64,000 nucleotides of DNA from Nevskiales bacterium (GTDB lineage Bacteria > Pseudomonadota > Gammaproteobacteria > Nevskiales > Nevskiaceae): assembly GCA_028698335.1 (NCBI GenBank), contig JAQVDP010000001.1, positions 248,001 through 312,000 on the forward strand, read 5' to 3'. The notes below the pieces were generated by a model. It saw nothing but the letters and a program-made list of their open reading frames with translations. It made no database searches and had not been told where the DNA came from. A program made the position numbers and the translations under genes. Shown here piece after piece: positions 319 through 13,363 of this stretch (the first letter of the stretch is position 1; each line of letters starts with the position of its first letter).

Positions 319-355
319 AAAAAAAAGTCCGCCCAAGCGCGCAGGCTCGGCGGAC
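319..355 (-). terminator. Second Rho-independent terminator in the porin leader
   Basis: On the minus strand GTCCGCC (plus 349-355) pairs with GGCGGAC (plus 327-333) around a 15-base loop, followed by eight T (plus 319-326). It lies between the ANTAR-type terminator and the porin start, so the porin leader carries two terminators in series. I do not see a tandem hexaloop of its own upstream of this one. Confidence 0.7.
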
Positions 356-376
356 GGCTCTCGTTTTGCGGGCACG

Positions 377-480
377 AAAAAGGCGTCGCCGAACCGTTTG
401 CACGGTCAGGTGGACGCCTTTGTCCCAGATTCGATTGATGGATCGTTTGCGGGCGGCGGCGCGGTCTCGCCATTGAGTCC
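377..480 (-). promoter_or_regulatory. ANTAR-target leader RNA with terminator, upstream of the porin
   Basis: Reading the minus strand, P1 is GGACTC-AATGGC-GAGACC (plus 463-480) with one internal A-A mismatch. P2 is GGAC-AAAGGC-GTCC (plus 412-425). Both six-base loops have A at position 1 and G at position 4, the known ANTAR recognition pattern. The P2 3' arm overlaps the 5' arm of a terminator (AAGGCGTC pairing with GACGCCTT, then T residues, plus 377-420). P2 and terminator are therefore mutually exclusive, as expected of an antitermination switch bound by NasT. Confidence 0.8.
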
Positions 481-520
481 CACCGTCACGGTGGCGTGGC
501 GCGCAGCCCGCCGGACATCA

Positions 521-536
521 CGCAATGCCCGTGCCA
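521..536 (-). promoter_or_regulatory. Sigma-54 promoter for the porin leader
   Basis: The minus strand reads TGGCACGGGCATTGCG, a full match to the -24 (TGGCACG) and -12 (TTGC) elements with correct spacing. Predicted transcription start is near 510, about 30 bases before P1 of the ANTAR leader. No NtrC site was identified by eye. Confidence 0.82.
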
Positions 537-582
537 ACGGGAGCCCGGCACCCCCGCATTTTCCCGCATGGAATTCGGGACT

Positions 583-600
583 TATACCCCAATGGGTATA
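583..600. promoter_or_regulatory. Perfect inverted repeat TATACCC-CAAT-GGGTATA
   Basis: A 7-bp perfect inverted repeat with a 4-base spacer lies between the divergent porin promoter and nasT, 123 bases before the nasT start. The A/T-flanked C/G tract layout recalls operators of CsoR-family repressors, but that is only resemblance. The rest of 601-722 shows no other feature I can support. Confidence 0.4.
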
Positions 601-722
601 TGGCGGAGGGGCATGCAGCGCGTTGTCGCGGCGGCGGCGGCGGCCGGTCACGACGTGCAGGGCACAGTATTTGCGTAGCGGCAAACCAAGCACTTCCCGA
701 TCCAACGGTAGCCGCTGAACCT

Positions 723-1292
723 ATGCGTGTGATGCTCGTCGATGATGACTACGGCCGGATGGCGCTGTTGCGCCAGGCGCTGCTGTCCGGCGGCAACGAA
801 GTCGTTGCGCAGCTGTCTCCGGCCGACGACCTGCTGCACGCGGTCTCGCAGTGCCAGCCCGATGTGATCCTGATCGAAGTCGACTCGCCCAGCCGCGACA
901 CGCTCGAATCGCTGGGCCAGATCAACCGCGATCGGCCCCGTCCGATCGTGCTGTTCGCGTCGCAGAGCGACGCGGACACCGCACGCCGTGCCATGCGCGC
1001 GGGTGTCAGTGCCTATGTGGTCGACGGCATGTCGTCGTCGCGCCTGAAGTCGGTGATCGACGTTGCGATCGCGCGCTTCGACGAACATCAGGCACTGCGC
1101 AAGGAACTGGCTGAAACCAAAACCCGGCTTGCCGATCGCCGCGATGTCGATCGCGCCAAGGGCGTGCTCATGCAGCGCCGCAAGCTGACCGAAACCGAGG
1201 CCTATGAGCTGTTGCGTAAGATGGCCATGGACCGAAACGTCAAGATCGGCGATGCCGCGCGTTCGCTGCTGGCCGCCGCGGAGTTGCTGTGA
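723..1292 (+). CDS. nasT: NasT-type ANTAR antitermination regulator
   Basis: A 189-residue protein with a receiver-like domain (about 1-120) and a C-terminal ANTAR RNA-binding domain (about 130-187, containing DRAKGVLMQRRKLTETEAYE). NasT proteins bind tandem hexaloop hairpins in nascent leaders and stop terminator formation; without nitrate they are held by NasS. The receiver is degenerate: the end of beta-3 reads ILIEVDSPSRDT with Glu52 at the usual acceptor position, and beta-5 reads AYVVDGM where Lys is normal. Control by NasS binding rather than phosphorylation fits this. The GTGA junction with nasS shows translational coupling. The ATG at 723 is chosen because the receiver begins there; no good Shine-Dalgarno is visible. 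Targets are probably the three leaders at 377-480, 2541-2608 and 3382-3514. Confidence 0.93.
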   Translation: MRVMLVDDDYGRMALLRQALLSGGNEVVAQLSPADDLLHAVSQCQPDVILIEVDSPSRDTLESLGQINRDRPRPIVLFASQSDADTARRAMRAGVSAYVVDGMSSSRLKSVIDVAIARFDEHQALRKELAETKTRLADRRDVDRAKGVLMQRRKLTETEAYELLRKMAMDRNVKIGDAARSLLAAAELL

Positions 1293-2494
1293 ACGTGAAC
1301 ACGACGAGCGCAGGGCTGGAGAAGAAGCGGCTCCAGATCGGCATCATTCCGCTGGTCGACGCCGCACCGATCATCGTTGCGCGCGACAAGGGCTTCTTCG
1401 AACGCCACGGGCTGCACGTCGACATCAGTGTCGAAGCCTCGTGGGCCAGCATCCGCGACAAGGTCGTCGCCGGCATGCTCGACGGCGCGCAGATGCTCGC
1501 GCCGATGCCGCTGGCGGCGACGCTGGGCGTCGACGGCATCGGTACGCCGATGCTCACGGCGCTGTCCCTGAATCTCAACGGCAACTCCATTGCGGTTTCG
1601 GAAGGCGTCTACCGCGCGATGAGGCTGACGCGGCGCGAGCCGGTCAGCGCGGGCCGCGCGCTCAAGGCGCTGCTCGAGCACGACCGCATCGACGGCCGCA
1701 AGCCGCGCGTGTTCGCACACGTGTTTCCGTTTTCGACGCACCACTACGAACTGCGCTACTGGCTTGCGGCCAGCGGCATCGATCCCGATCGCGACCTGCG
1801 CCTCGAGGTCGTGCCGCCGCAGCTGGTGGTCCAGCACCTGCGCGACGGCCGCATCGACGGGTTCTGCGCGGGCGCGCCGTGGGGCGCCGTTGCGGAACTG
1901 GCCGGCGTCGGCCAGCGCATCGTCAACACCCATCAGATCTGGAACAACAGCCCGGAGAAGGTCTTCGGCGTCACCCGCGAATGGGCCGACGCGCATCCGC
2001 GGACCCACCGCGCGCTGGTCGCGGCGCTGATCGAGGCCTGCCGCTGGCTGGACGAAGCCGAGCACCGCCCCGAAGCGGCGCAGCTGCTGATCGATGCCGG
2101 TGCACTCGACGCACCGCCGGCGACGATCCGCACCGCGCTGGACATGCCGGTCCCGGGCGATCCGTTCTTCGGTCCGGGCCTGGTGTTCTACCGGAACGCC
2201 GCAACCTTCCCGTGGGTGTCGCATGCGATCTGGTTCATCCGCCAGATGCAGCGCTGGGGCCAGGTCGCGGAATCCGTCGACGCGGCCGCCGTCGCGGCCG
2301 AGGTCTACCGTGCCGACATCTACCGTGACGCCGCGGGTCCGCTCGGGATTCCGCTGCCCGACACCGATCACAAGGACGAGGGCGTCCATGCCCAGGACTG
2401 GTCGCTGTCCTGCAGCGGCGGCACCCTGGCAATGGGCTCCGACCGCTTCTTCGACGACGCGGTGTTCACACTCGGAGGCGGCCAGCCCGCGTGA
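1289..2494 (+). CDS. nasS: NasS-type nitrate-sensing protein (NrtA homologue)
   Basis: A 401-residue homologue of the nitrate-binding proteins NrtA/CmpA (LQIGIIPLVDAAPIIVARDK at about residue 14, then FFERHGL) that lacks a signal peptide, as expected for cytoplasmic NasS. In the known NasS-NasT pair, NasS binds nitrate or nitrite and otherwise sequesters NasT. It starts with GTG at 1289, overlapping the nasT stop by four bases. Motifs shared with NrtA downstream include [12 protein letters not shown]-type and NNSPEKVFGVT segments. It is followed after 11 bases by a sigma-54 promoter for the globin leader. Confidence 0.92.
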   Translation: MNVNTTSAGLEKKRLQIGIIPLVDAAPIIVARDKGFFERHGLHVDISVEASWASIRDKVVAGMLDGAQMLAPMPLAATLGVDGIGTPMLTALSLNLNGNSIAVSEGVYRAMRLTRREPVSAGRALKALLEHDRIDGRKPRVFAHVFPFSTHHYELRYWLAASGIDPDRDLRLEVVPPQLVVQHLRDGRIDGFCAGAPWGAVAELAGVGQRIVNTHQIWNNSPEKVFGVTREWADAHPRTHRALVAALIEACRWLDEAEHRPEAAQLLIDAGALDAPPATIRTALDMPVPGDPFFGPGLVFYRNAATFPWVSHAIWFIRQMQRWGQVAESVDAAAVAAEVYRADIYRDAAGPLGIPLPDTDHKDEGVHAQDWSLSCSGGTLAMGSDRFFDDAVFTLGGGQPA

Positions 2495-2505
2495 TGCCGG
2501 GGTGG

Positions 2506-2521
2506 TGGCACATCCCGTGCG
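2506..2521 (+). promoter_or_regulatory. Sigma-54 promoter for the globin leader
   Basis: TGGCACATCCCGTGCG matches -24 GG and -12 GC with the correct spacing (one T of the -12 element is G). Predicted start is near 2532, nine bases before P1 of the ANTAR leader. Confidence 0.72.
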
Positions 2522-2540
2522 TATCAATCGGCACACAGCA

Positions 2541-2608
2541 GCCCAACGACGGGCCGCCCCTACGGATAACGAAGTCCATTCACCGCCGGCGCGGGAATGG
2601 GCTTTTTT
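2541..2608 (+). promoter_or_regulatory. ANTAR-target leader RNA with terminator, upstream of the globin
   Basis: P1 is GCCC-AACGAC-GGGC (2541-2554). A nine-base linker follows, then P2 GGAT-AACGAA-GTCC (2564-2577). Both loops have A1 and G4. The P2 3' arm is the start of a terminator stem GTCCATTC (2574-2581) paired with GAATGGGC (2595-2602), followed by six T. This is the most compact and clearest of the three leaders. Confidence 0.87.
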
Positions 2609-2730
2609 GCGTTCGGGCACCGGCGCGTCGCGATGGCTGCGTCCTCGAGCCGGTCTTCAGCGTTGGGGCGGCGCCCGGAATCCGCGTGTTCACGGCCTCT
2701 TTCACGCGGGTTCCGGCGCACCGTTTCCGT

Positions 2731-2767
2731 ATCCGGCAGCGATGCGGCTGCCGGATCCTTTTTGTTT
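2731..2767 (+). terminator. Second terminator in the globin leader
   Basis: ATCCGGCAGC (2731-2740) pairs perfectly with GCTGCCGGAT (2747-2756) around a six-base loop and is followed by CCTTTTTGTTT. It lies 32 bases before the globin start codon, downstream of the ANTAR terminator. The bases between the two terminators (2609-2730) show no gene. Confidence 0.82.
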
Positions 2768-2798
2768 CGATCCTCGACTCCATACACCGTAAGCATCC

Positions 2799-3200
2799 AT
2801 GACCCCGATCCAAATCGAACTGGTGAGGACCACCTGGAAACAGGTTCAGCCGATCCAGGAAACCGCCGCCGAGCTGTTCTACAACAAGCTGTTCGAGCTC
2901 GACCCGAAACTCCGGCCGATGTTCAAGGGCGACATCACCGAACAGGGCCGCAAGCTGATGCGCATGCTCGGCATCGCCGTCAACGGCCTCGACCATCTCG
3001 ACGCCCTGCGTCCGGCACTGGTCGATCTGGGCCGCCGTCATGCCGGCTACGGCGTGACGATGGATGACTACGGCACCGTCGCCGTGGCGCTGCTGTGGAC
3101 CCTCGAGCAGGGGCTCGGCGAGGCGTTCACCGCCGAGGTCCGCAATGCCTGGACCGAGGCCTATATGGTGCTGGCGACGACGATGCAGACCTATCACTGA
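2799..3200 (+). CDS. Single-domain globin
   Basis: A 133-residue globin fold protein: TPIQIELVRTTWKQV (A helix), FYNKLFELDP (B/C), MFKGDITEQGRKLM (E helix, Gln likely at the distal E7 position), and RRHAGYGV with the proximal His of the F helix. There is no reductase domain, so it is not a flavohaemoglobin. Such globins bind O2 or NO. Its placement behind a sigma-54 promoter and NasT-type leader suggests a role during nitrate assimilation, for example handling NO formed from nitrite; this is inference. The start ATG at 2799 follows the second leader terminator. Confidence 0.88.
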   Translation: MTPIQIELVRTTWKQVQPIQETAAELFYNKLFELDPKLRPMFKGDITEQGRKLMRMLGIAVNGLDHLDALRPALVDLGRRHAGYGVTMDDYGTVAVALLWTLEQGLGEAFTAEVRNAWTEAYMVLATTMQTYH

Positions 3201-3345
3201 TCGTTGCCGCGCCGCGGGGAGCCAGCTCCCAGCGGCTGTGCGGACTGCACTGCGCGCGTGCAGGGCATCGCGCCACGCTGGTGCATCCGCCGCGCGAATA
3301 CAGGGTTTGGCGGACCCGATCCGCCCGGATGCGCGCCTCAGGGCA

Positions 3346-3361
3346 TGGCACGACCCTTGCG
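3346..3361 (+). promoter_or_regulatory. Sigma-54 promoter for the nitrate operon
   Basis: TGGCACGACCCTTGCG is a full -24/-12 sigma-54 match with correct spacing. Predicted start is near 3372, ten bases before the first leader hairpin. The preceding stretch 3201-3345 shows no gene. Confidence 0.87.
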
Positions 3362-3381
3362 ATATCACCCCCGAGTAGCGC

Positions 3382-3514
3382 GGGTGCAGTAAGCCAACGG
3401 TGGCCCACCCGGCTCGAAGCAGACGCCGTCCGCCATTAGGCGATCACGACGCATAAACGGACAACGACGTCCATGAAGCGGTTTCTCAAAACCGCGTCAT
3501 GGGCGTTTTTTTTT
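3382..3514 (+). promoter_or_regulatory. ANTAR-target leader RNA with terminator, upstream of nrtA
   Basis: P1 is a two-part hairpin: GGGTG (3382-3386) with CACCC (3406-3410), enclosing GCC-AACGGT-GGC (3393-3404). P2 is GGAC-AACGAC-GTCC (3459-3472). Both loops have A1 and G4. The terminator stem ACGTCCATGA (3467-3476) pairs with TCATGGGCGT (3497-3506), contains an inner GCGGTTT/AAACCGC hairpin, and ends in nine T. P1 has only three bases pairing next to its loop, so it is less certain than P2. Confidence 0.83.
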
Positions 3515-3530: not shown

Positions 3531-4934
3531 ATGACTTCACGCCACACCACGGTCAACCGCCACGTCACCCGCCGCAGCGTCCTGCGCCGCGCGGCTGCGC
3601 TCCTGACTTGTGCCGGGATCGGCCTGAGCAGCGCCGCCGGCGCCATGACCCTCCCTGAAAAAGAGGATCTGAAGTTCGGCTTCATCAAGCTGACCGACAT
3701 GGCGCCGCTGGCGATCGCCTACGAGAAGCGCTACTTCGAGGACGAGGGCCTCTACGTCACGCTCGAAGCCCAGGCCAACTGGAAGGTGCTGCTCGACCGG
3801 GTGATCTCCGGCGAACTCGACGGTGCCCACATGCTCGCCGGACAGCCGCTGGCCGCGACGATCGGCTTCGGCACCAAGGCCGACATCATCACGCCGTTCT
3901 CGATGGACCTCAACGGCAACGGCATCACCGTGTCGAAGGCGGTCTGGGAACAGATGAAGGCCAATATCCCGGTCAAGAACGGCAAGCCGGTGCATCCGAT
4001 CAGCGCGTCCGCGCTCAAGCCGGTGGTCCAGCGGTACCGCGCCGACGGCAAGCCCTTCAACATGGGCATGGTCTTCCCGGTGTCCACCCACAACTACGAA
4101 CTGCGCTACTGGCTCGCCGCCGGCGGCCTGCATCCCGGCTACTACGCACCGCAGACCGGTGACGTGACCGGCCAGATCAACGCCGACGTGCTGCTGTCGG
4201 TGACGCCGCCGCCGCAGATGCCGGCGACCCTGGAAGCCGGAACCATCTACGGCTACTGCGTCGGCGAGCCGTGGAACCAGCAGGCGGTGTTCAAGGACAT
4301 CGGTGTGCCGGTGATCACCGACTACGAGATCTGGAAGGACAATCCGGAGAAGGTCTTCGGCATCCGCGCCGACTTCGCCGAGAAGTATCCGAACACCACC
4401 AAGGCGCTGGTCAAGGCGATGATCCGCGCGGCGTACTGGCTCGACCAGAACAACAACGCCAACCGCGCCGAAGCGGTGAAGATCCTCTCGAAATCCGAAT
4501 ACGTCGGCGCCGACGCCAAGGTGATCGCCAACTCGATGACCGGCACCTTCGAGTACGAGAAGGGCGACAAGCGCGAAGTCCCCGACTTCAACGTCTTCTT
4601 CCGCTACAACGCGACCTACCCGTACTACTCCGATGCGATCTGGTATCTGACGCAGATGCGGCGCTGGGGCCAGATCGCCGAACACAAGCCGGACAGCTGG
4701 TACATGGACGTGGCCAGGAAGGTCTATCGCCCGGACCTCTACGCCGCCGCCGCGAAGGAACTGATCGCCGAGGGCAAGCTCAAGGCGTCCGATTTCCCGG
4801 ATTTCGCGACCGAGACCGGCTTCAAGCCCGCGACTGACGCCTTCATCGACGGCATCAGCTACGACGGCCGCAAACCCAATGCCTATATCGACAGTCTTCC
4901 GATCGGCCTCAAGGGGCAGGACAGCGTCGACTGA
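3531..4934 (+). CDS. nrtA: Nitrate ABC transporter substrate-binding protein
   Basis: A 467-residue CmpA/NrtA-family periplasmic binding protein. Residues 1-38 form a Tat-type signal with twin arginine ([13 protein letters not shown]) before a hydrophobic stretch and AGA-like cleavage region. The mature protein begins around [20 protein letters not shown]. Shared family segments include [20 protein letters not shown] and [12 protein letters not shown]. It delivers nitrate (possibly nitrite) to NrtB. The start at 3531 is chosen because the upstream in-frame ATG at 3513 lies beside the terminator T run. First gene of the operon nrtA-nrtB-nrtCD-MFS-nirB-nirD-reductase-nasA. Confidence 0.93.
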
Positions 4935-4976
4935 CGACGCGACCCGGCACCACAACGATCGGACAGGAGTGCAGTC

Positions 4977-5993
4977 ATGCTCAATCAAACCGTCAACTTT
5001 CTCGGCAAGGCCGGCCTGACCTGGTTCGTGCCGTTCGCGCGCCTCGCCGCCGGCGAGGATCCGCGCGAACAGTTCCGCGAGATCCTGCGCACGATCGGGA
5101 TCCCGGTCGTCGCCTTCATCGTGTTCCTGATGATGTGGGGTGGCGTCGCCAAGGGCATCCAGACCAGCCTCGGCACCCTGCCGGGTCCGGGCCAGGTCTG
5201 GGACGCCGGGATCGGTCTGCTCGACGAGCACTTCGCCGAGCGCGAGAAGGCGCAGGCCTTCTACGAGCGCCAGGTCGAACGCAACGCCAGGATTCTCGCG
5301 GAGGACCCCGACGCCGAAGTCCGCATCCGCGACTGGACCGGCAAGCCGACCTATCTCGACCAGATCGCGACCAGCCTGCTGACGGTGTTCACCGGCTTCG
5401 TGCTGGCGACGATCGTCGCGGTGCCGCTGGGGATCGTCTGCGGACTGTCGCCGACGGTTCAGGCCGCGCTCAATCCGATGATCCAGCTGTTCAAGCCGGT
5501 TTCGCCACTGGCGTGGCTGCCGATCGTGACGCTGGTGGTCAGCGCGGTCTACGTCAGCACCGACCCGCTGTTCGAGAAATCCTTCCTCGTCTCCGGCATC
5601 ACGGTGACGCTGTGCTCGCTGTGGCCGACGCTGATCAACACCGCGGTCGGCGTGGCGTCGGTCGACAAGGATCTGATCAACGTCTCGAAAGTCCTGCAGC
5701 TGTCGTGGTTCGCCAAGGTCCGCAAGATCGTGCTGCCGTCGTCGCTGAAGCTGATCTTCACCGGTCTGCGCCTGAGCCTGGGCGTGGGCTGGATGGTCCT
5801 GATCGCGGCCGAGATGCTGGCGCAGAACCCGGGACTGGGCAAATTCGTCTGGGACGAATTCCAGAACGGCAGTTCGCAGTCGCTCGCCCGGATCATGGTG
5901 GCCGTGTTCACGATCGGCTTCGTCGGCTTCCTGCTCGATCGGGTGATGGCGACGCTGCAGCAGCTCGCCAGCTTCGGCGAGCCGGCCCACTGA
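4977..5993 (+). CDS. nrtB: Nitrate ABC transporter permease
   Basis: A 338-residue inner-membrane permease of the NrtB/SsuC type. A first membrane segment (about 43-58, [15 protein letters not shown]) is followed by a periplasmic stretch of about 80 residues and then the transport domain with about five more segments. The cytoplasmic EAA-like loop lies in [20 protein letters not shown]. It pairs with NrtCD and NrtA to import nitrate. It begins 42 bases after nrtA with an AGGAG site upstream. Confidence 0.93.
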
Positions 5994-6006
5994 GCCGGGG
6001 CGAACC

Positions 6007-7770
6007 ATGGCCGCACCGATGAGAAAAACCCTCGCCCCGCAGGACGCCGCCGTGCTGGCGGCCGGCGACTCGCCATTGATCCCGGCCGATGCCAGCGCCC
6101 GCGTCGAGCTGCGCAAGGTCAGCAAGAGCTATGGCGAGGGCGCCCACCGCGCGCCGGTGCTGGAGAACGCCGATCTGCGCATCGCCGACGGCGAGTTCGT
6201 CGCGATCGTCGGTTTCTCCGGAACCGGCAAGACCACGCTGATCTCGCTGATCGCCGGGCTGATCCAGGCCGACAGCGGCAGCGTCATGGCCAACGGCCAG
6301 CCGGTCACCGGGCCAGGGGCCGATCGCGGCGTGGTGTTCCAGAGCTATTCGCTGATGCCGTGGATGACCGTGCGCGAGAACGTCGCGCTCGCGGTCGATC
6401 AGGTGTTCCGCGACCACCCCAGGGCCGAGCGCCGCGCCCGCGTCGAGAAGTACGTCGACATGGTCGGGCTGACCCCGGCGATGGGCAAACGGCCGGCCGA
6501 ACTCTCGGGCGGCATGCGCCAGCGCGTCTCGGTCGCCCGCGCACTGGCGGCGAGCCCGGACATCCTGCTGCTCGACGAACCGCTGTCGGCGCTCGATGCC
6601 CTGACCCGCGCCAAGCTGCAGGACGAGATCGTGCAGATCTGGGAGCGCGAGAAGAAGACCGTCGTCCTGATCACCAACGATGTCGACGAAGGCATCATCA
6701 TGGCGGACCGCATCATCCCGCTGAATCCGGGGCAGCCCGGCGTCAGCGGTTCGACCTTCGGTCCGGAGTTCGTCGTCGACCTGCCGCGGCCGCGCGACCG
6801 CCGTGCGATGAACCATGACCCCGCGTTCATCCACATCCGCAAGGAAGTGACCGAATACCTGATGGCGGCCAGCGCGCGTCGCAGCGCAGCCGACACCGGC
6901 AAGGTCGTGCCGCTCAAGGGCCTGGTCCCGAACACGCGCGAGGACGCGGTCGAAACGCTGCCGTCGGCGCAAACGCGCCCGCCGGTGCAGCCGGAACGCT
7001 ACGTCGAGTTCTCGCAGATCTCGAAGATCTACCCGACCCGCAAGGGTCCGGTGAAGGTCGTCGACGGCTTCGATCTGAAGATCCACCAGGGCGAGTTCAT
7101 CTCGGTCATCGGCCATTCCGGCTGCGGCAAGTCGACGGTGCTGTCGATGATGGCCGGGCTCAACGCGATCAGCGAGGGCGTGATCGTCCTCGACGGCAAG
7201 GAGATCGACGGCGCCGGACCGGACCGCGGCATCGTGTTCCAGGCCCCGAGCCTGGTGCCGTGGCTGACGGCGTTCGAGAACGTGATGCTCGGCGTCAACC
7301 AGGTGTTCCCGAAGGCCACCGCCGAGGAACGCGCCCAGATCGCCGAACACTACCTGCAACGCGTCGGCCTGTCCGGCGACCTGCACAAGCGGGCGGCGGA
7401 ACTGTCCAACGGCATGAAGCAGCGTGTCGGCATCGCCCGCGCGTTCGCGCTGTCGCCGAAGCTGCTCCTGCTCGACGAACCGTTCGGCATGCTCGATTCG
7501 CTGACGCGCTGGGACCTGCAGGAAGTGCTGATGGAGGTCTGGGCCAGGACCAAGCTCACGGCGATGATGGTGACCCACGACGTCGACGAGGCGCTGCTGC
7601 TCGCCGATCGCGTGGTGATGATGACCAACGGTCCGAACGCCCGGGTCGGCAAGATCCTCGACGTCACCCTGCCGCGCCCGCGCTCGCGCAAGGCTCTGCT
7701 CGAGCACCCCGACTACTACCGCCTGCGCGAGGAGCTGCTGCAGTTCCTCGCCGAGTGCGACCGGCACTGA
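6007..7770 (+). CDS. Nitrate ABC transporter ATPase, two fused ATP-binding domains
   Basis: A 587-residue protein made of two ABC ATPase domains (about 32-285 and 331-585), equivalent to fused NrtC and NrtD nucleotide-binding domains. Domain 1 has Walker [10 protein letters not shown] (69-77), signature LSGGM (166-170), Walker B LLLDE (187-191) and Asn224 in TNDVDEG where a switch His is normal. Domain 2 has Walker [10 protein letters not shown] (369-377), signature LSNGM (466-470, Gly to Asn), Walker B LLLDE and an intact THDVDEA (His524). The Asn224 and LSNGM deviations would face each other in one composite ATP site, so one of the two sites is probably weak. It energises NrtA-NrtB nitrate import. 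It lacks the NrtA-like C-terminal domain of cyanobacterial NrtC. Confidence 0.92.
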
Positions 7771-7782
7771 CGGGACCAGGTC

Positions 7783-9081
7783 ATGTCCGGCCCCTCACAG
7801 GCGACAGCCCTGCGCGCACTGCAGGTACGCGACCCGGCGACGCGGATCTTCCACCTGAGCTGGATGGTCCAGTTCGCCTGTGGTCTGGCGTGGTTCGCAT
7901 ACGCCCCGCTGAAGCCACGGTTCGCCGAACATCTGGCGCTGATGCCGGCGCAGCTGACGCGGATCGACCACGTCGCGGTGGCCGCCGCCATCGCCGCCGC
8001 CTTTGCGGCCGGTCCGATCTGCGCGCGGCTCGGCCCCGGGCGGACCCTGGCGGCACTGCTGCTGCTGAGCTGCCTCGGGCTGCTCGGCATGGCGGCGGCG
8101 GCCGACGCCACCGCGCTGATGACCGCCCGGATCATGCTGGGCTTCGCGGCCGCCGGCTGGGTCGTGAGCCTGGGCTACGTCGCCGCGGCCTATGCGCCGA
8201 ACGTGCTCGGACTCGCGCTGGCCACGGTCACCGGACTCGGCAGCCTCGGCGTGGCGACGGCCTGGCTGCTGCTGCCCGCGCTTGCCGCCACGGACCTGCT
8301 GGGCGGCCGCAGCGCGCTGCTGGTCCCCGCGGCGCTGACGGCGCTGCTGGGCCTGGTCTGCGCGGTCGCCGCGCCGGCCTGTCCCGGCACCACGGCGCGA
8401 CGGACCCCGCGGGCCTGCCGCTCCGGCGCCGCCCGCCGCAACCTGCTGCGCGCAGCGCTCAATTACCGCAGCTGGATGCTGGCCATCGCCTGTGCGGCGA
8501 GCTTCGGCATCGAGGTCTACGTCCACGCCCTGACCGCGCGGACCTGGAGCGGCCAGTTCGGCGTCTCCTTCGGCAGCGTCGGCATCGCCGCCTCCGGCTT
8601 CGCGGCGGCGATCGTCCTGGCCCGCGTCCTCGGCGGAACCGCATCGGACCGGCTCGCCCGCGTCAGCGGACTCGACGGCAGGGGCCTGCTCCTGTTCGCG
8701 CTGCTGTTCGGCGAAGGCATCGATCTGCTGCTGCTGTCGCAGGCACAGGGCACCGCGCTGTCGGCCCTGCTCGTGATCGGCGCGATCGTGCTGGCGACCG
8801 CCGCCGCCGCGGCCGCGTTCGCGCTGGCGCCATTCGTCGATCGCCGCGCGCTCGGCAGCGTGCTGTCGATCACCGTCGCCGGCGGCCTGCTCGGCGCGGT
8901 GGCCGCGACGCTGCTGGCAACGACAGCCGGTGATCCGCACGGCGGTCTGCTGCTCGTCGGCAGCAGCGTCACCATCGCGTCGCTGTCGGCGGTCGCGCTG
9001 CGCTTCGGCGCGCGCCAGCTCGCGCGCGAACACATCCAAATTCATCAGGCGCTGCGTCAACGCGGCGCCGTGACGGTCTGA
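7783..9081 (+). CDS. NarK-like MFS transporter (nitrate/nitrite family)
   Basis: A 432-residue major facilitator with about twelve hydrophobic segments. The opening RIFHLSWMVQFACGLAWFAY resembles the NarK/NasA nitrate-nitrite porter family. Signature-like glycine-rich segments are present (for example TVTGLGSLGVATAW), though they diverge from the classical family signature. Between the nitrate ABC transporter and nirB, a role in nitrate uptake or nitrite exchange is likely. Start ATG at 7783 follows a GGGACC-type upstream sequence 12 bases after nrtCD. Function by homology and context; the ion is not certain. Confidence 0.8.
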   Translation: MSGPSQATALRALQVRDPATRIFHLSWMVQFACGLAWFAYAPLKPRFAEHLALMPAQLTRIDHVAVAAAIAAAFAAGPICARLGPGRTLAALLLLSCLGLLGMAAAADATALMTARIMLGFAAAGWVVSLGYVAAAYAPNVLGLALATVTGLGSLGVATAWLLLPALAATDLLGGRSALLVPAALTALLGLVCAVAAPACPGTTARRTPRACRSGAARRNLLRAALNYRSWMLAIACAASFGIEVYVHALTARTWSGQFGVSFGSVGIAASGFAAAIVLARVLGGTASDRLARVSGLDGRGLLLFALLFGEGIDLLLLSQAQGTALSALLVIGAIVLATAAAAAAFALAPFVDRRALGSVLSITVAGGLLGAVAATLLATTAGDPHGGLLLVGSSVTIASLSAVALRFGARQLAREHIQIHQALRQRGAVTV

Positions 9082-9127
9082 TGCGGACCGCCTCGCCGTC
9101 CGCTCGCCGCACATATCGGAGGTCACC

Positions 9128-11683
9128 ATGAAACTGGTCGTCATCGGAAACGGAATGGTCGGGCACAAGCTGCTCGAGTCGCTGGGCGCTGCCGAGAACC
9201 TGCAGGTCACCGTCCTGTGCGAGGAGCCGCGGCCGGCCTACGATCGGGTACACCTGTCCGAGTTCTTTTCCGGCAAGAGTGCCGACGACCTGTCGCTGGT
9301 CGAACCCGGCTTCTTCGACAACCCGCGCATCGACCTGCGCCTGGGCGCCCAGGCGGCATCACTGGACCGCAGCCTGAAGACGGTGACGACCGCCGACGGC
9401 GAAGTCATTGCCTACGACAAGCTGGTGCTGGCAACCGGCTCTTATCCGTTCGTGCCGCCGATTCCCGGCAAGGATCGCGACGGCTGCTTCGTCTATCGCA
9501 GGATCGAGGATCTCGAGGCGATGACCGCCTGCGGCGCGCAGTCGAAGGTCGGTGTCGTCGTCGGCGGCGGCCTGCTCGGACTTGAATGCGCCAAGGCCCT
9601 GCGCGACATGGGCCTGACGACCCACGTCGTCGAATTCGCACCGCGCCTGATGGCGGTGCAGGTCGACGAGGGCGGCGGCCGCGTGCTGCGCCGCAAGATC
9701 GAGGATCTCGGCGTCAGCGTGCATACCGAGAAGAACACCGTCGAGATCGTCGACGGCGAGCAGTGCCGGCACCGGATGCGCTTTGCCGACGGCAGCGAGC
9801 TGGAGACCGACATGATCGTGTTCTCCGCCGGCATCCGCCCGCGCGACGAACTGGCGCGGGCGTCCGATCTCGGGGTGGGCCCGCGCGGTGGCATCGTCGT
9901 CGACAACCGCTGCCGCACGCTCGACCCGGACATCTACGCCATCGGCGAATGCGCGCTGTGGGACGGCCGCATCTTCGGTCTGGTCGCGCCGGGATACGAG
10001 ATGGCCCGCGTCGTCGCCAGCGACATCCTGTCCGCCGTGGATGCCACCGCCGGTCCGGCCGCTGAATTCCTCGGCGCCGACATGTCGACCAAGCTCAAGC
10101 TGATGGGCGTCGACGTCGCCAGCATCGGCGACGCCCACGGCCGCACCGAAGGTAGCCGCGCGTTCATCTACACCGACGAGCGCAAGCAGATCTACAAAAA
10201 GCTGGTGACCTCGGAAGACGGCAAGCTGTTGCTCGGCGCGGTGCTGGTCGGCGACGCCAACGAGTACGGTTCACTGCTGCAGATGGCGCTCAATCACATC
10301 GAGCTGCCGGAATCCCCGGAGTTCCTGATTCTGCCGAGCAGCGACGGCACCGTCACGACCGGGCTCGGCGTCGACGCGTTGCCGGCGTCCGCGCAGATCT
10401 GCTCCTGCAACAACGTGTCCAAGCTGCAGCTCTGCGAGGCGATCGGGGCCGGAGAGACGACGCTCGGCGGATTGAAGAAATGCACCAAGGCGGCGACCAC
10501 CTGCGGCGGCTGCGCGCCGCTGGTGACACAGGTTCTCAAGGCCGAACTCAAACGGCTCGGCCACAGCGTCAACAATCACCTGTGCGAACACTTCCCGTAT
10601 TCGCGCCAGGAGTTGTATCACCTGATCCGCGTCGGCGGCATCCGGAATTTCGATGAGCTGCTGGCGAAGCACGGCAGCGGCCTCGGCTGCGACATCTGCA
10701 AGCCGACGGCGGCGAGCATCTTCGCGTCCTGCTGGAACGAGTTCGTCCTGACCAGGGACAAGGCGGCGCTGCAGGACTCCAACGACTACTACCTGGCCAA
10801 TATCCAGAAGAACGGCTCGTACTCGGTCGTGCCGCGGATCGCCGGCGGCGAGATCACGCCGGACAAGCTGATCGTCATCGGACAGGTTGCCAAGAAGTAC
10901 GGCCTCTATACCAAGATCACCGGCGGTCAGCGCATCGACCTGTTCGGCGCGCAGGTGCATCAGCTGCCGGCAATCTGGGGCGAGCTCGTCGCCGCCGGCT
11001 TCGAGTCCGGCCACGCCTACGGCAAGGCCGTGCGCACGGTGAAGTCCTGCGTCGGCAGCACCTGGTGCCGCTACGGCGTGCAGGATTCGGTCGGCATGGC
11101 ACTGCTGGTGGAGAACCGCTACAAGGGCCTGCGCGCGCCGCACAAGATCAAGTTCGCGGTATCGGGCTGCACCCGCGAATGCGCCGAGGCGCAGAGCAAG
11201 GACGTCGGCGTCATCGCCACCGAAAAGGGCTGGAACCTGTACGTCTGCGGCAACGGCGGGATGAAACCCCGTCACGCCGAGCTGCTTGCGTCGGATCTGG
11301 ATGACGCGACGCTGATCCGCTACATCGACCGCTTCCTGATGTTCTACATCCGCACGGCGGACCGCCTGCAGCGCACCAGTGTCTGGCGCGACAACCTCGA
11401 AGGCGGACTCGACTACCTCCGGCAGGTGATCGTCGACGATTCGCTGGGACTCGGCGCCGAACTCGAGGCGGAGATGCGCCATGTCGTCGACACCTACGAG
11501 TGCGAGTGGAAGAAGGCGATCAACGACCCCGACACGCTCAAGCGCTTCCGCACCTTCGTCAACAGCGATGCGGACGACAGCGGCGTCGTGTTCGTCGAGG
11601 AGCGCGGCCAGATCCGGCCGGCGACCGACGCCGAGAAGCAGACCCGGTTCAAGGATATCGAGATCGTCGCGGAAGCGACCTGA
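9128..11683 (+). CDS. nirB: Assimilatory nitrite reductase [NAD(P)H], large subunit
   Basis: An 851-residue NirB that reduces nitrite to ammonium with NAD(P)H. Order: FAD-binding Rossmann (VVIGNGMVGHKLLE, residue 3 on), NAD-binding (VVVGGGLLGLECAK, near 147), BFD-type [2Fe-2S] region with CSCNN near 425 and CxGCAP near 458, then sulfite/nitrite reductase ferredoxin-like and sirohaem domains. The sirohaem/[4Fe-4S] cysteines are in SCVGSTWCRYG and GCTRECAEAQ (about 640-686). Length is normal for the family. A GGAGG site precedes the ATG at 9128. Confidence 0.96.
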   Translation: MKLVVIGNGMVGHKLLESLGAAENLQVTVLCEEPRPAYDRVHLSEFFSGKSADDLSLVEPGFFDNPRIDLRLGAQAASLDRSLKTVTTADGEVIAYDKLVLATGSYPFVPPIPGKDRDGCFVYRRIEDLEAMTACGAQSKVGVVVGGGLLGLECAKALRDMGLTTHVVEFAPRLMAVQVDEGGGRVLRRKIEDLGVSVHTEKNTVEIVDGEQCRHRMRFADGSELETDMIVFSAGIRPRDELARASDLGVGPRGGIVVDNRCRTLDPDIYAIGECALWDGRIFGLVAPGYEMARVVASDILSAVDATAGPAAEFLGADMSTKLKLMGVDVASIGDAHGRTEGSRAFIYTDERKQIYKKLVTSEDGKLLLGAVLVGDANEYGSLLQMALNHIELPESPEFLILPSSDGTVTTGLGVDALPASAQICSCNNVSKLQLCEAIGAGETTLGGLKKCTKAATTCGGCAPLVTQVLKAELKRLGHSVNNHLCEHFPYSRQELYHLIRVGGIRNFDELLAKHGSGLGCDICKPTAASIFASCWNEFVLTRDKAALQDSNDYYLANIQKNGSYSVVPRIAGGEITPDKLIVIGQVAKKYGLYTKITGGQRIDLFGAQVHQLPAIWGELVAAGFESGHAYGKAVRTVKSCVGSTWCRYGVQDSVGMALLVENRYKGLRAPHKIKFAVSGCTRECAEAQSKDVGVIATEKGWNLYVCGNGGMKPRHAELLASDLDDATLIRYIDRFLMFYIRTADRLQRTSVWRDNLEGGLDYLRQVIVDDSLGLGAELEAEMRHVVDTYECEWKKAINDPDTLKRFRTFVNSDADDSGVVFVEERGQIRPATDAEKQTRFKDIEIVAEAT

Positions 11684-11697
11684 AGTGGAGTGCTGAG

Positions 11698-12051
11698 ATG
11701 GACGGCGACAGAATGGACGTTGCATGGCACGAGGTCTGCGGGGTTGACGAAATCTGGCCCGACACCGGGATCTGCGCACTGATCGACGGACGCCAGATTG
11801 CGGTGTTCCGGCTCAGCGCCAGCGAGACGCCCGGCGAGTTCTTCGCGATCGACAATCACGATCCGATGTCCGGCGCCAACGTGCTGTCGCGCGGACTGAT
11901 CGGGAATCTCGGCGAACGGCTGGTGGTGGCGTCGCCGATCTACAAGCATCACTACGACCTGCGCACCGGCGAGTGCGTCGAGGATCCGAACGTGTCGATC
12001 CACACGTTCGGTGCGCGCGTGCGCGACGGCCGGGTCTGGATCGGCGCATGA
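11698..12051 (+). CDS. nirD: Assimilatory nitrite reductase, small subunit
   Basis: A 117-residue Rieske-fold NirD subunit. The fold is recognisable (WHEVCGVDEIWPDTG, FFAIDNHDPMSGANVLSRG, SPIYKHHYDLRTGECVEDP), and it lacks the Cys/His cluster ligands, as is normal for NirD. It partners NirB. The start at 11698 is chosen from an AGTG/GGAG stretch just upstream; a second ATG four codons later is possible. Its stop overlaps the next start (ATGA). Confidence 0.93.
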   Translation: MDGDRMDVAWHEVCGVDEIWPDTGICALIDGRQIAVFRLSASETPGEFFAIDNHDPMSGANVLSRGLIGNLGERLVVASPIYKHHYDLRTGECVEDPNVSIHTFGARVRDGRVWIGA

Positions 12052-13337
12052 GTGTTGCGCGTACCCCCGTGTCCACCGATACCTTCGGGCCGCCGCCGGC
12101 GCGCCTGGTGGTGGTCGGCAACGGCATGGCCGGTATGCGCACCGTCGAGGAGCTGCTGGCGCTCGATCCGACCCGCTACCGCATCACCGTGTTCGGCGCC
12201 GAACCGCACGGCAACTACAACCGCATTCTGCTGTCGCCGATGCTCGCCGGCGAGATGAGCGTCGAGGACATCATGCTCAACCCGCCGCAGTGGTATGCCG
12301 ATCAGGGCATCACCCTGCATGCCGGCGACCCGGTCGTTGCGATCGACCGCCAGCGGCGGACGGTGCGCTCGGCCAGCGGGCTTGAGGTCCCGTACGACCG
12401 GCTGCTGCTGGCAACCGGCTCCAGTCCGTTCATCCTGCCGTTGCCGGGTGCCGACCTGCCGGGCGTGGTGTCGTTCCGCGAGATCGGCGACGTCGAAACC
12501 ATGCTGGCCGCATCACGCGACGGCGGCAAGGCGGTGGTCATCGGCGGCGGCCTGCTCGGACTCGAGGCTGCCAACGGCCTGATGCGGCGCGGCATGGACG
12601 TGACGGTCGTCCACGTCATGGACAGCCTGATGGAGCGGCAGCTCGACAAACCGTCGGGCGCGCTGCTCCGGAAAGCGCTCGAACGCCGCGGCATCCGCGT
12701 GCTGCTCGAGGCCAGGACCGAGTCGATCATCGGCACCGATCACGTCACCGGTCTGCGCTTCGCCGACGGCACCGAGATCGAGGCCGGGCTCGTGGTCATG
12801 GCGGTCGGGATTCGCCCGAACATCACGCTGGCGCAGGCGGCGGGTCTGCACTGCGAGCGCGCGATCGTCGTCGACGACACCCTGCAGACGCTGTCGGATC
12901 CCCGCATCTATGCCGTCGGCGAATGCGTGCAGCACCGGCGCGCGACGTTCGGGCTGGTCGCGCCGATCTGGGAACAGGCCAAGGTCTGCGCGGCGCACCT
13001 CGCCGGCGCCGGACACCGTCACTACGTGCAACAGGCCACGTCGACGAAGCTGAAGGTCACCGGCATCGATCTGTTTTCCGCCGGCGAGATCGTCGGCGGG
13101 CCCGACACCGAGGACCTGGTGTTCCGCGATCCGCGCCGGGGCGCCTACAAGCGTCTGGTGCTGCGCGACGCGCGGATCGTCGGCATCGTCCTCTACGGCG
13201 ACGTCGGCGACGGCCCGTGGTACTACGAATTGATGCAGTCACGGCAGGACGTCCGCGCCCTGCGCAGCCGCCTGCTGTTCGGGCGCGCGTACTGCGACGA
13301 ACACCCCAGCAGCGAAGACCTGCGGGAGTCCACATAA
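12048..13337 (+). CDS. FAD/NAD(P)H reductase, probable electron donor to nitrate reductase
   Basis: A 429-residue pyridine-nucleotide disulphide oxidoreductase-type flavoprotein, homologous to the N-terminal half of NirB. FAD motif VVVGNGMAGMRTVEEL near residue 20; NAD motif VVIGGGLLGLEAANGL near 164; a second FAD contact in YAVGECVQHRRATFGLVAP. There is no BFD or sirohaem domain. In several assimilatory clusters a reductase of this type (NasB/NasC-like names vary) feeds electrons from NADH to NasA. Its four-base overlap with nirD and 26-base distance from nasA support that role. The precise partner is inference. Confidence 0.85.
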   Translation: MSVARTPVSTDTFGPPPARLVVVGNGMAGMRTVEELLALDPTRYRITVFGAEPHGNYNRILLSPMLAGEMSVEDIMLNPPQWYADQGITLHAGDPVVAIDRQRRTVRSASGLEVPYDRLLLATGSSPFILPLPGADLPGVVSFREIGDVETMLAASRDGGKAVVIGGGLLGLEAANGLMRRGMDVTVVHVMDSLMERQLDKPSGALLRKALERRGIRVLLEARTESIIGTDHVTGLRFADGTEIEAGLVVMAVGIRPNITLAQAAGLHCERAIVVDDTLQTLSDPRIYAVGECVQHRRATFGLVAPIWEQAKVCAAHLAGAGHRHYVQQATSTKLKVTGIDLFSAGEIVGGPDTEDLVFRDPRRGAYKRLVLRDARIVGIVLYGDVGDGPWYYELMQSRQDVRALRSRLLFGRAYCDEHPSSEDLREST

Positions 13338-13363
13338 GAATGGAACAGGGACAGGGATAGGCC

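Follow-up and report, generated by a model that had tools for sequence, protein, structure and literature searches.

Seven sigma-54 promoters followed by ANTAR-type leaders: a probable NasS-NasT nitrate regulon in a Nevskiales bacterium

How many transcripts can a single nitrate switch govern in one bacterium, and which genes do they carry? The question is raised by a 64,000-nucleotide stretch of DNA (contig C44:248001-312000, hereafter the window) from the 4.3-Mb genome of a Nevskiales bacterium related to Solimonas. Here nasT, coding for an ANTAR response-regulator-like protein, and the adjoining nasS, coding for an NMT1-type nitrate-binding protein, lie between a porin gene on one side and the genes for a globin and for nitrate assimilation (beginning with nrtA) on the other. 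NasS-NasT control of the nasA leader is known in Azotobacter vinelandii. In Paracoccus denitrificans, nitrate releases NasT from NasS, and NasT binds the nasA leader (PMC3795266, in excerpt). Dual hairpins whose six-base loops have A as the first and G as the fourth letter (A1/G4 hexaloops), placed upstream of a terminator, are known as the target RNAs of ANTAR proteins (EutV, NasR, AmiR; Ramesh et al. 2012, PMC3369931, in excerpt). The original prediction, made from the letters of the window, described such leaders ahead of porin, globin and nrtA, named nasTS as their obvious regulators and proposed a three-transcript, AND-gated regulon. We report that a 17-kb stretch of the contig holds seven leaders, three in the window and four outside it, and we give a probability of about 0.85 to a NasS-NasT regulon of seven transcripts, with sigma-54 promoters followed by ANTAR-type leaders.

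Leader anatomy and the cluster of seven

In the sequence, porin, globin and nrtA are each preceded by a -24/-12 promoter, two A1/G4 hexaloop hairpins (P1 and P2) and a terminator that shares letters with P2 (Table 1), just as had been described. All three promoters have the GG-N10-GC arrangement and the -24/-12 consensus, in a genome with two rpoN genes, and the terminator 5' arm begins within P2 in the three leaders. A scanner requiring a P2 of four or more pairs with an A1/G4 hexaloop, a terminator stem that starts within this P2 and at least five T, run on both strands of the window (128 kb), returned exactly these three leaders, all with a sigma-54 site, against three sites altogether (one with a sigma-54 site) in ten first-order Markov copies of the window. 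There are three blemishes: the -12 element of the globin promoter reads GTGC instead of TTGC, the inner P1 stem of nrtA has just three pairs, and the P1 stem of porin has an A.A mismatch. In the porin and globin leaders, a second terminator-like hairpin with its T run follows the NasT terminator ahead of the gene; inspection by eye shows no A1/G4 P2 unit before these second hairpins, and the globin leader of a relative (G044) has a single T run.

A genome-wide search, of the kind that the original prediction had suggested as a check, extends the set beyond the window. The bare P2 pattern GGAYANNGNNGTCC is not enriched (30 matches in the genome versus 37 for the reversed control). Six of the 30 fall inside C44:234256-251472, and all six have a sigma-54 site and a T run, versus none of the 24 elsewhere. 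The promoter pattern TGGCAYN5TTGC occurs at 26 sites, six of them in this cluster, five of which begin full leaders by the scanner; none of the 19 sites inspected among the 20 outside the cluster (L181 being the site left out) is a leader. The sixth cluster site precedes an OmpA-cupredoxin gene, with P1 GGACC(AACGAC)GGTCC, P2 GGAT(GAAGAC)GTCC and a terminator; the scanner missed this leader because its P2 has G1, which breaks the A1 rule, just as the globin promoter is outside the TGGCAYN5TTGC set because of its -12. The P2 and promoter searches are blind to any leader deviating in both. The earlier count of three transcripts was an artefact of the window edge.

The four leaders outside the window precede a DUF3034-globin-FMN_bind-PepSY operon, its partial copy, the OmpA-cupredoxin gene and an operon for TPR proteins. 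An exact 1,757-bp duplication, which also holds DUF3034 and an apparently exported haemoglobin, makes two of the seven leaders identical; it could be real or an assembly effect, and Sinimarinibacterium CAU 1509 (L140) likewise has tandem DUF3034-haemoglobin pairs. Dual A1/G4 hexaloops are present in porin, globin, nrtA and the four further leaders, the exception being the OmpA-cupredoxin P2. A covariance model built on the short-linker class of leaders (R1) detected five leaders in this genome at E 3.4e-5 or better; four had been trained on or are identical to trained ones, and the fifth, the OmpA-cupredoxin leader, was matched at E 3.4e-5 though absent from the training.

Table 1. Coordinates of genes and control elements in the window and, where marked, in the DNA outside it
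Feature	Position	Strand	Evidence or remark
Porin gene, 5' part, Alginate_exp-type barrel	1-267, continues to window -920	-	Pfam PF13372, E 3.9e-8 on L003:15080-16267
Second terminator-like hairpin and T8 ahead of porin start	319-355	-	
Porin terminator	377-421	-	5' arm built from P2 loop and P2 3' arm
Porin P2, GGAC(AAAGGC)GTCC	412-425	-	
Porin P1, loop AATGGC	463-480	-	one A.A mismatch in stem
Porin sigma-54 promoter TGGCACGGGCATTGC	522-536	-	11/11 consensus letters
nasT, response-regulator-like with ANTAR	723-1292	+	Pfam PF03861, E 2.2e-19; PF00072, E 1.2e-12
nasS, NMT1_2 nitrate-binding-like	1289-2494	+	Pfam PF13379, E 2.8e-84; overlaps nasT stop
Globin sigma-54 promoter TGGCACATCCCGTGC	2506-2520	+	9/11 consensus letters
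Globin P1, loop AACGAC	2538-2557	+	within Rfam narK match
Globin P2, GGAT(AACGAA)GTCC	2564-2577	+	
Globin terminator	2574-2608	+	overlaps P2 3' arm
Second terminator-like hairpin ahead of globin gene	2731-2763	+	
Single-domain globin	2799-3200	+	Pfam PF00042, E 4e-15; NCBIfam flavohaemoprotein NF009805, E 3e-18, 66 bits, under cut-off 432
NtrC-like site	3246-3262	+	1 mismatch to TGCACYN5RGTGCA
NtrC-like site	3269-3285	+	2 mismatches to TGCACYN5RGTGCA
nrtA sigma-54 promoter TGGCACGACCCTTGC	3346-3360	+	11/11 consensus letters
nrtA P1, loop AACGGT	3382-3410	+	
nrtA P2, GGAC(AACGAC)GTCC	3459-3472	+	
nrtA terminator, T9	3469-3514	+	overlaps P2 3' arm
nrtA, nrtB, nrtC, MFS, nirB-like, FAD/NAD reductase, nasA-like molybdoprotein	3531-16081	+	Pfam
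Second NasT (NasT2), outside window	L003 14341-15069 = window -931..-1659	-	
Truncated haemoglobin, 162 amino acids, outside window	L003 12356-12841 = window -3159..-3647	-	
FMN_bind protein, outside window	L003 11642-12235	-	
1,757-bp duplicates, outside window	L004 4603-6359 and 16350-18106 = window -15397..-13641 and -3650..-1894		

Covariation, spacing and conservation

The conservation of P1 was assessed in 66 non-identical leaders with a sigma-54 site (close relatives included, and a few probably false, e.g. L111 and L124:408). In 33 of them, the stretch between the sigma-54 site and P2, which played no part in leader selection, contains an A1/G4 hexaloop closed by five or more pairs; shuffles average 1.65, and no other combination of letters in these two loop positions is found in more than seven. 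Covariation was measured in two sets, both composed of leaders with P1 already found and hence biased towards pairing. The short-linker set has 21 leaders (27 rows with P1 spacing below 30, among 42 of the short-target classes, less six identical or near-identical ones) and shows 26 double-change cells versus 6.7 when shuffled, with a covariation score of 0.419 versus 0.154 shuffled and at most 0.101 slid; both sides change in five of the six P1 pairs, a count reached by 9 of 500 shuffles. P2 is nearly invariant in this alignment, and RNAalifold, unaided, gives the same pairs. In the long-linker set (19 of 24 long-target rows, three without P1 and two with a weak P1 being dropped), there are 26 double-change cells versus 8.0 and a score of 0.594 versus 0.157, the number of pairs changed on both sides being reached by 49 of 500 shuffles.

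The linkers between P1 and P2 are bimodal. Of the 42 leaders with a measurable P1, 26 have linkers of 2-16 nucleotides (nt) and 16 have linkers of 26-50 nt, the range of 17-25 nt being empty; one of the long values (28 nt, L140) is a P1 taken for P2, the true split being nearer 26 short and 15 long. Short linkers belong to DUF3034, globin and otherwise unclassed leaders (apart from L140), and long ones to nrtA, porin, MFS and three of four nirB leaders, while the TPR-operon leaders come with both, the long ones having weak P1s. In this genome, the linker measures 6 nt in globin, 37 in porin and 48 in nrtA. Curated ANTAR targets in a survey of actinobacteria were allowed linkers of 2-25 nt (PMC8164766, in excerpt), a range that holds the globin leader and leaves out nrtA and porin; compared with that rule, we find a long-linker subclass of about 26-50 nt, besides one P2 with G1.

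At E 1e-5, ANTAR was matched in 63 of the 85 genomes of the order. We picked 40 regions of relatives by hand, 39 of them at ANTAR matches and one at a globin. One or more leaders with a sigma-54 site are present in 23 of the 40, and these leaders precede porin, nrtA, nirB, MFS, DUF3034, FMN_bind and the TPR operon, among others. R1 gave 25 matches in 19 of the 369 genomes of the class that were searched, 20 of them outside the genome studied here. All 20 lie beside homologues of nasT, nasS, nrtA, porin or reductase (15 with a nasT homologue in their 3-kb locus, the remaining five beside nasS/nrtA-like, porin or reductase genes), and P2 with an overlapping terminator is found in 19, while in the twentieth P2 reads GGAC(GAAGAC)GTCC and a terminator was recognised by eye. 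A good sigma-54 site (at least 9 of 11) is present at just eight of the 20, and therefore sigma-54 does not generally belong to the switch. The NasT-type antitermination originally proposed is strongly supported by the dual hexaloops, the covariation, the terminator overlap, the adjacency of nasTS and the R1 matches beside homologues of the cluster genes.

Two variations were seen among the Solimonas relatives. Three globin genes of the group (L029, L030, L031) have a sigma-54 site 66-69 bases upstream and no leader, and in several Solimonas species (L119-L123) the nasTS pair directly adjoins the TPR operon. The NasS of these pairs is only about 38% identical to that of the window, and its ligand may differ from nitrate.

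No Rfam family matches the window at gathering thresholds. Below them, the narK RNA (RF03032) matches the globin leader (2507-2578) with 31.1 bits (gathering threshold 43.2) and P11 (RF00625) matches in the window with 21.6 bits (gathering threshold 70); both overlap these leaders, and the cmscan output shows no common clan. At a loose E-value, RF03032 has 19 matches in this genome, and the 15 loci inspected include the leaders of globin, the TPR operon (18.5 bits) and nrtA (15.1 bits); the other 12 have no leader unit by eye, several looking like coding or repeat noise. In 274 genomes of the class, the narK RNA gave five matches at E 1e-4 (two over the cut-off), all five with a sigma-54 promoter, P1, P2 and terminator, and P11 overlaps three of these loci at 24-32 bits, under its gathering score. 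One of the five (loci L199-L203) lies, by eye, between an ANTAR gene and an MFS gene; the annotated narK structure omits P2, and the narK sequence opens with the sigma-54 promoter. We take the narK RNA to be probably a NasT-type leader and, less firmly, P11 as well. Among the matches listed by searches of the open-access literature, no paper ties the narK RNA, DUF3034 or truncated haemoglobin to NasT.

Mechanism and competing explanations

The anatomy and conservation of the leaders, their covariation, the cluster statistics and the adjacency of nasTS are the basis of the regulon reading, and from them we infer NasT binding, nitrate dependence, read-through and an activator at each promoter. 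In the proposed mechanism, each transcript would start at its sigma-54 promoter and then meet an ANTAR-type leader. Without nitrate, NasS would hold NasT, and RNA polymerase would halt at the terminator of the leader. Nitrate or nitrite would free NasT, and an ANTAR dimer would grip the P1 and P2 hexaloops; the 3' arm of P2 (GTCC...), which the terminator needs for its own 5' arm, would then stay within P2, leading to read-through. Such a switch would stand ahead of the nrtA operon (the genes at 3531-16081 are taken as one operon, judged by their order), globin, porin with a second nasT gene (nasT2), OmpA-cupredoxin, the DUF3034/haemoglobin/FMN_bind/PepSY operon, the DUF3034-haemoglobin copy and the TPR envelope operon, NtrC being the likely activator at nrtA.

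Several observations weigh against this reading. In this genome, R1 misses the porin leader and ranks a probably false site (C26:207071, 26.2 bits, with neither a sigma-54 site nor a T run) above nrtA (25.9 bits). In 14 of the 66 leaders, including all four FMN_bind leaders, a relaxed search still finds no P1, and 17 of the 40 relative regions have no leader with a sigma-54 site at the stringency of the scanner. The globin leader occurs at just two of 22 globin places (this genome and G044), with a partial one in G041, and was rejected as a conserved trait. Convincing NtrC sites in this genome are ahead of nrtA only, not of porin or globin, and with two ANTAR genes present the leaders can be assigned to NasT only tentatively. 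The hairpin is missing from most of the genes that depend on nasT in Bradyrhizobium, and narK-bjgb, with a predicted hairpin, rose there in a nasT mutant in one later study (PMC6759348, in excerpt).

The alternative that survives best, to which we give somewhat less than even odds, accepts both sigma-54 control and antitermination and holds that the promoters answer to different enhancer-binding proteins, with no single AND gate. The genome has eight NtrC-like activators at E 1e-50 or better, one of them over the ntrC cut-off. Within the window, NtrC-like sites with up to three mismatches are not enriched (71 versus 84 by chance), the site at 3246-3262, ahead of nrtA, being one of only two with a single mismatch. 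Ahead of other promoters, the best sites have two mismatches (DUF3034, at 231 bases), three (TPR operon and globin) and four (porin). Counting sites with up to two mismatches within 300 bases, in leaders with at least 150 upstream bases, three of four nrtA-class leaders have one, but 1/9 for porin, 0/2 for globin, 0/4 for FMN_bind, 0/3 for nasT, 1/4 for the TPR operon and 1/12 for others, with a shuffled expectation of 0.04-0.09 across classes (0.07 for nrtA). On the other side, such sites are also raised at MFS and nirB (2/4 each) and at DUF3034 (5/19, shuffles 0.06), enhancers can work at a distance, the nrtA sites are less than 1 kb from the globin promoter, and work on P. denitrificans puts NtrC control above NasTS (PMC5424462, in excerpt). 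Because of these class-wise counts, NtrC control is likely at the nitrate assimilation genes and possible at DUF3034; as a common gate, NtrC sites are not supported for porin and globin. The single AND-gated regulon is only partly supported: the sigma-54 promoters are shared, and the genome has ntrC and two rpoN genes, but NtrC-like sites stand out here just ahead of nrtA.

A division of the leaders between NasT and the porin-linked NasT2, perhaps by linker class, seems to us rather unlikely. On the minus strand, NasT2 follows porin, with a GTG start 10 bases past the porin stop, and is 59% identical to NasT over 189 residues; the bimodal linkers, which largely follow the target, would also fit such a division. 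However, a relative with a single ANTAR gene (G035) carries both spacing classes with good P1s, and two others with one ANTAR gene each (G005 and G006) likewise carry both, although their long-spacing P1 is weak. In the alignment of the two receivers, one Glu of NasT is replaced by Asp in NasT2, and the ANTAR motif, which starts with AKG in NasT, starts with AKL in NasT2. The standing of nasTS as the obvious regulators is favoured by adjacency and made less certain by a second NasT paralogue beyond the window.

It is improbable that the short terminated leader RNAs act in trans, either as small RNAs or as decoys titrating NasT in the manner of EutX in Enterococcus. The presence of seven leaders in one genome and the overlap of P11 (a small RNA in Rfam) with three of the five narK loci, under its gathering score, speak in its favour, but each leader is directly upstream of genes, and the terminator uses P2 letters, as a cis switch requires. 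Chance hairpins beside ordinary terminators, which GC-rich sequence makes common and for which the unenriched plain P2 pattern might speak, are hardly credible in view of the cluster with its sigma-54 sites and T runs, the Markov scan, the excess of A1/G4 P1 loops and the P1 covariation.

The haemoglobin operon and the breadth of the regulon

The operon beyond the window runs, on the minus strand, from DUF3034 through a 162-amino-acid protein to FMN_bind and PepSY_TM. The 162-amino-acid protein is a group-1 truncated haemoglobin by sequence, fold match and proximal His, and is apparently exported, its N-terminus resembling a signal peptide by eye. It matches M. tuberculosis HbN at E 3.6e-9 (TyrB10Phe mutant) and 9.1e-9 (1idr), and Pfam Bac_globin at 19.3 bits, under the cut-off of 21; the aligned proximal His is invariant. 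The 43 best PDB matches found by Foldseek with the AlphaFold2 model of a relative (L140, pLDDT 68) are haemoglobins, 13 of them at E 0.001 or better, and we take these 43, partly from their titles, to be truncated ones. At the places of HbN Tyr B10 and Gln E11, which we assume to be the distal-pocket positions with a role in nitric oxide (NO) dioxygenation, the protein has Phe and Asn, both columns being invariant in 6 and in 22 sequences; an HbN-type NO dioxygenase role is weakened by these residues. The FMN_bind protein contains the letters DNISGAT, which resemble the ApbE flavinylation motif. In Solimonas fluminis and relatives (L143, L144, L145), a lone NasT paralogue lies between the haemoglobin gene and FMN_bind, and FMN_bind has its own leader, with an ApbE gene nearby in L144.

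Searching with the truncated haemoglobin led to the 25 loci examined here, in Solimonas, Sinimarinibacterium, Hydrocarboniphaga, Stenotrophobium, Nevskia, Oceanococcus, a Salinisphaerales metagenome-assembled genome, Zhongshania and Spongiibacter. A leader with a sigma-54 site precedes the DUF3034 operon in 18 (two being copies in one genome); one locus (L146) is missing its upstream DNA, and another (L157) has a leader-like unit without a sigma-54 site ahead of a NasT-like gene. At the remaining five, all in Zhongshania or Spongiibacter, no leader was found though the operon is present, and the link between leader and haemoglobin is therefore lineage-specific.

The TPR operon, also on the minus strand, codes for a 596-amino-acid protein without a family, a 965-amino-acid TPR protein and a TPR lipoprotein-like protein. 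The fold of the first (model of a relative, pLDDT 69) has TPR-like matches, and since none reaches E 0.001 we give it no function. In Solimonas fluminis (L144), two genes for ExbD and one TonB_C-like gene (under the cut-off) come after the genes of this operon.

Antitermination by NasT/ANTAR behind a sigma-54 promoter is of an already known kind. The Paracoccus system is alike in its nasTS pair, its hairpin leader on nitrate-assimilation genes and NtrC above (PMC3795266 and PMC5424462, in excerpt), and the ANTAR-target RNAs have the same two A1/G4 hairpins before a terminator (PMC3369931, in excerpt). In contrast to Paracoccus and Azotobacter, there are seven leaders here, most on genes outside nitrate assimilation proper and each with a -24/-12 promoter. 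In the narK-bjgb-flp-nasC genes of Bradyrhizobium, NasT likewise controls, together with nitrate assimilation, a single-domain haemoglobin that serves to detoxify NO (PMC4724949, in excerpt), whereas here the globin has its own leader among many transcripts, and an operon for an exported truncated haemoglobin comes in addition. PepSY-type flavinylated extracytosolic electron transfer systems share PepSY_TM and FMN_bind with the operon (and ApbE, adjoining in the relative L144), but "globin" and DUF3034, present in the operon here, are absent from the main text of PMC8238504 and PMC11334425. To our knowledge, what is new is the number of leaders, the types of target genes, the division into two classes of linker and the conserved association with the exported truncated haemoglobin operon.

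With considerable reserve, we suggest that NasS-NasT in Nevskiales might be a master nitrate response, governing periplasmic haem, flavin and copper machinery (the exported truncated haemoglobin, the FMN_bind protein, PepSY_TM, the DUF3034 barrel and OmpA-cupredoxin) together with the TPR envelope operon, which would jointly handle nitrogen oxides outside the cytoplasm, the two leader geometries setting different read-through thresholds. With seven leaders, a textbook one-operon switch would become a regulon of many transcripts, and sequence would be enough to name its members. A testable regulator and inducer would be assigned to conserved envelope genes (DUF3034, the exported truncated haemoglobin, OmpA-cupredoxin and the TPR operon), the long-linker class would be left out by the published linker rule, and two separate Rfam families, the narK RNA and, less firmly, P11, are suggested to be the same NasT-type leader. 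The nitrate response of this bacterium is predicted to be wider than the usual nitrate-use operon, taking in a globin, outer-membrane proteins and an apparently exported haemoglobin system.

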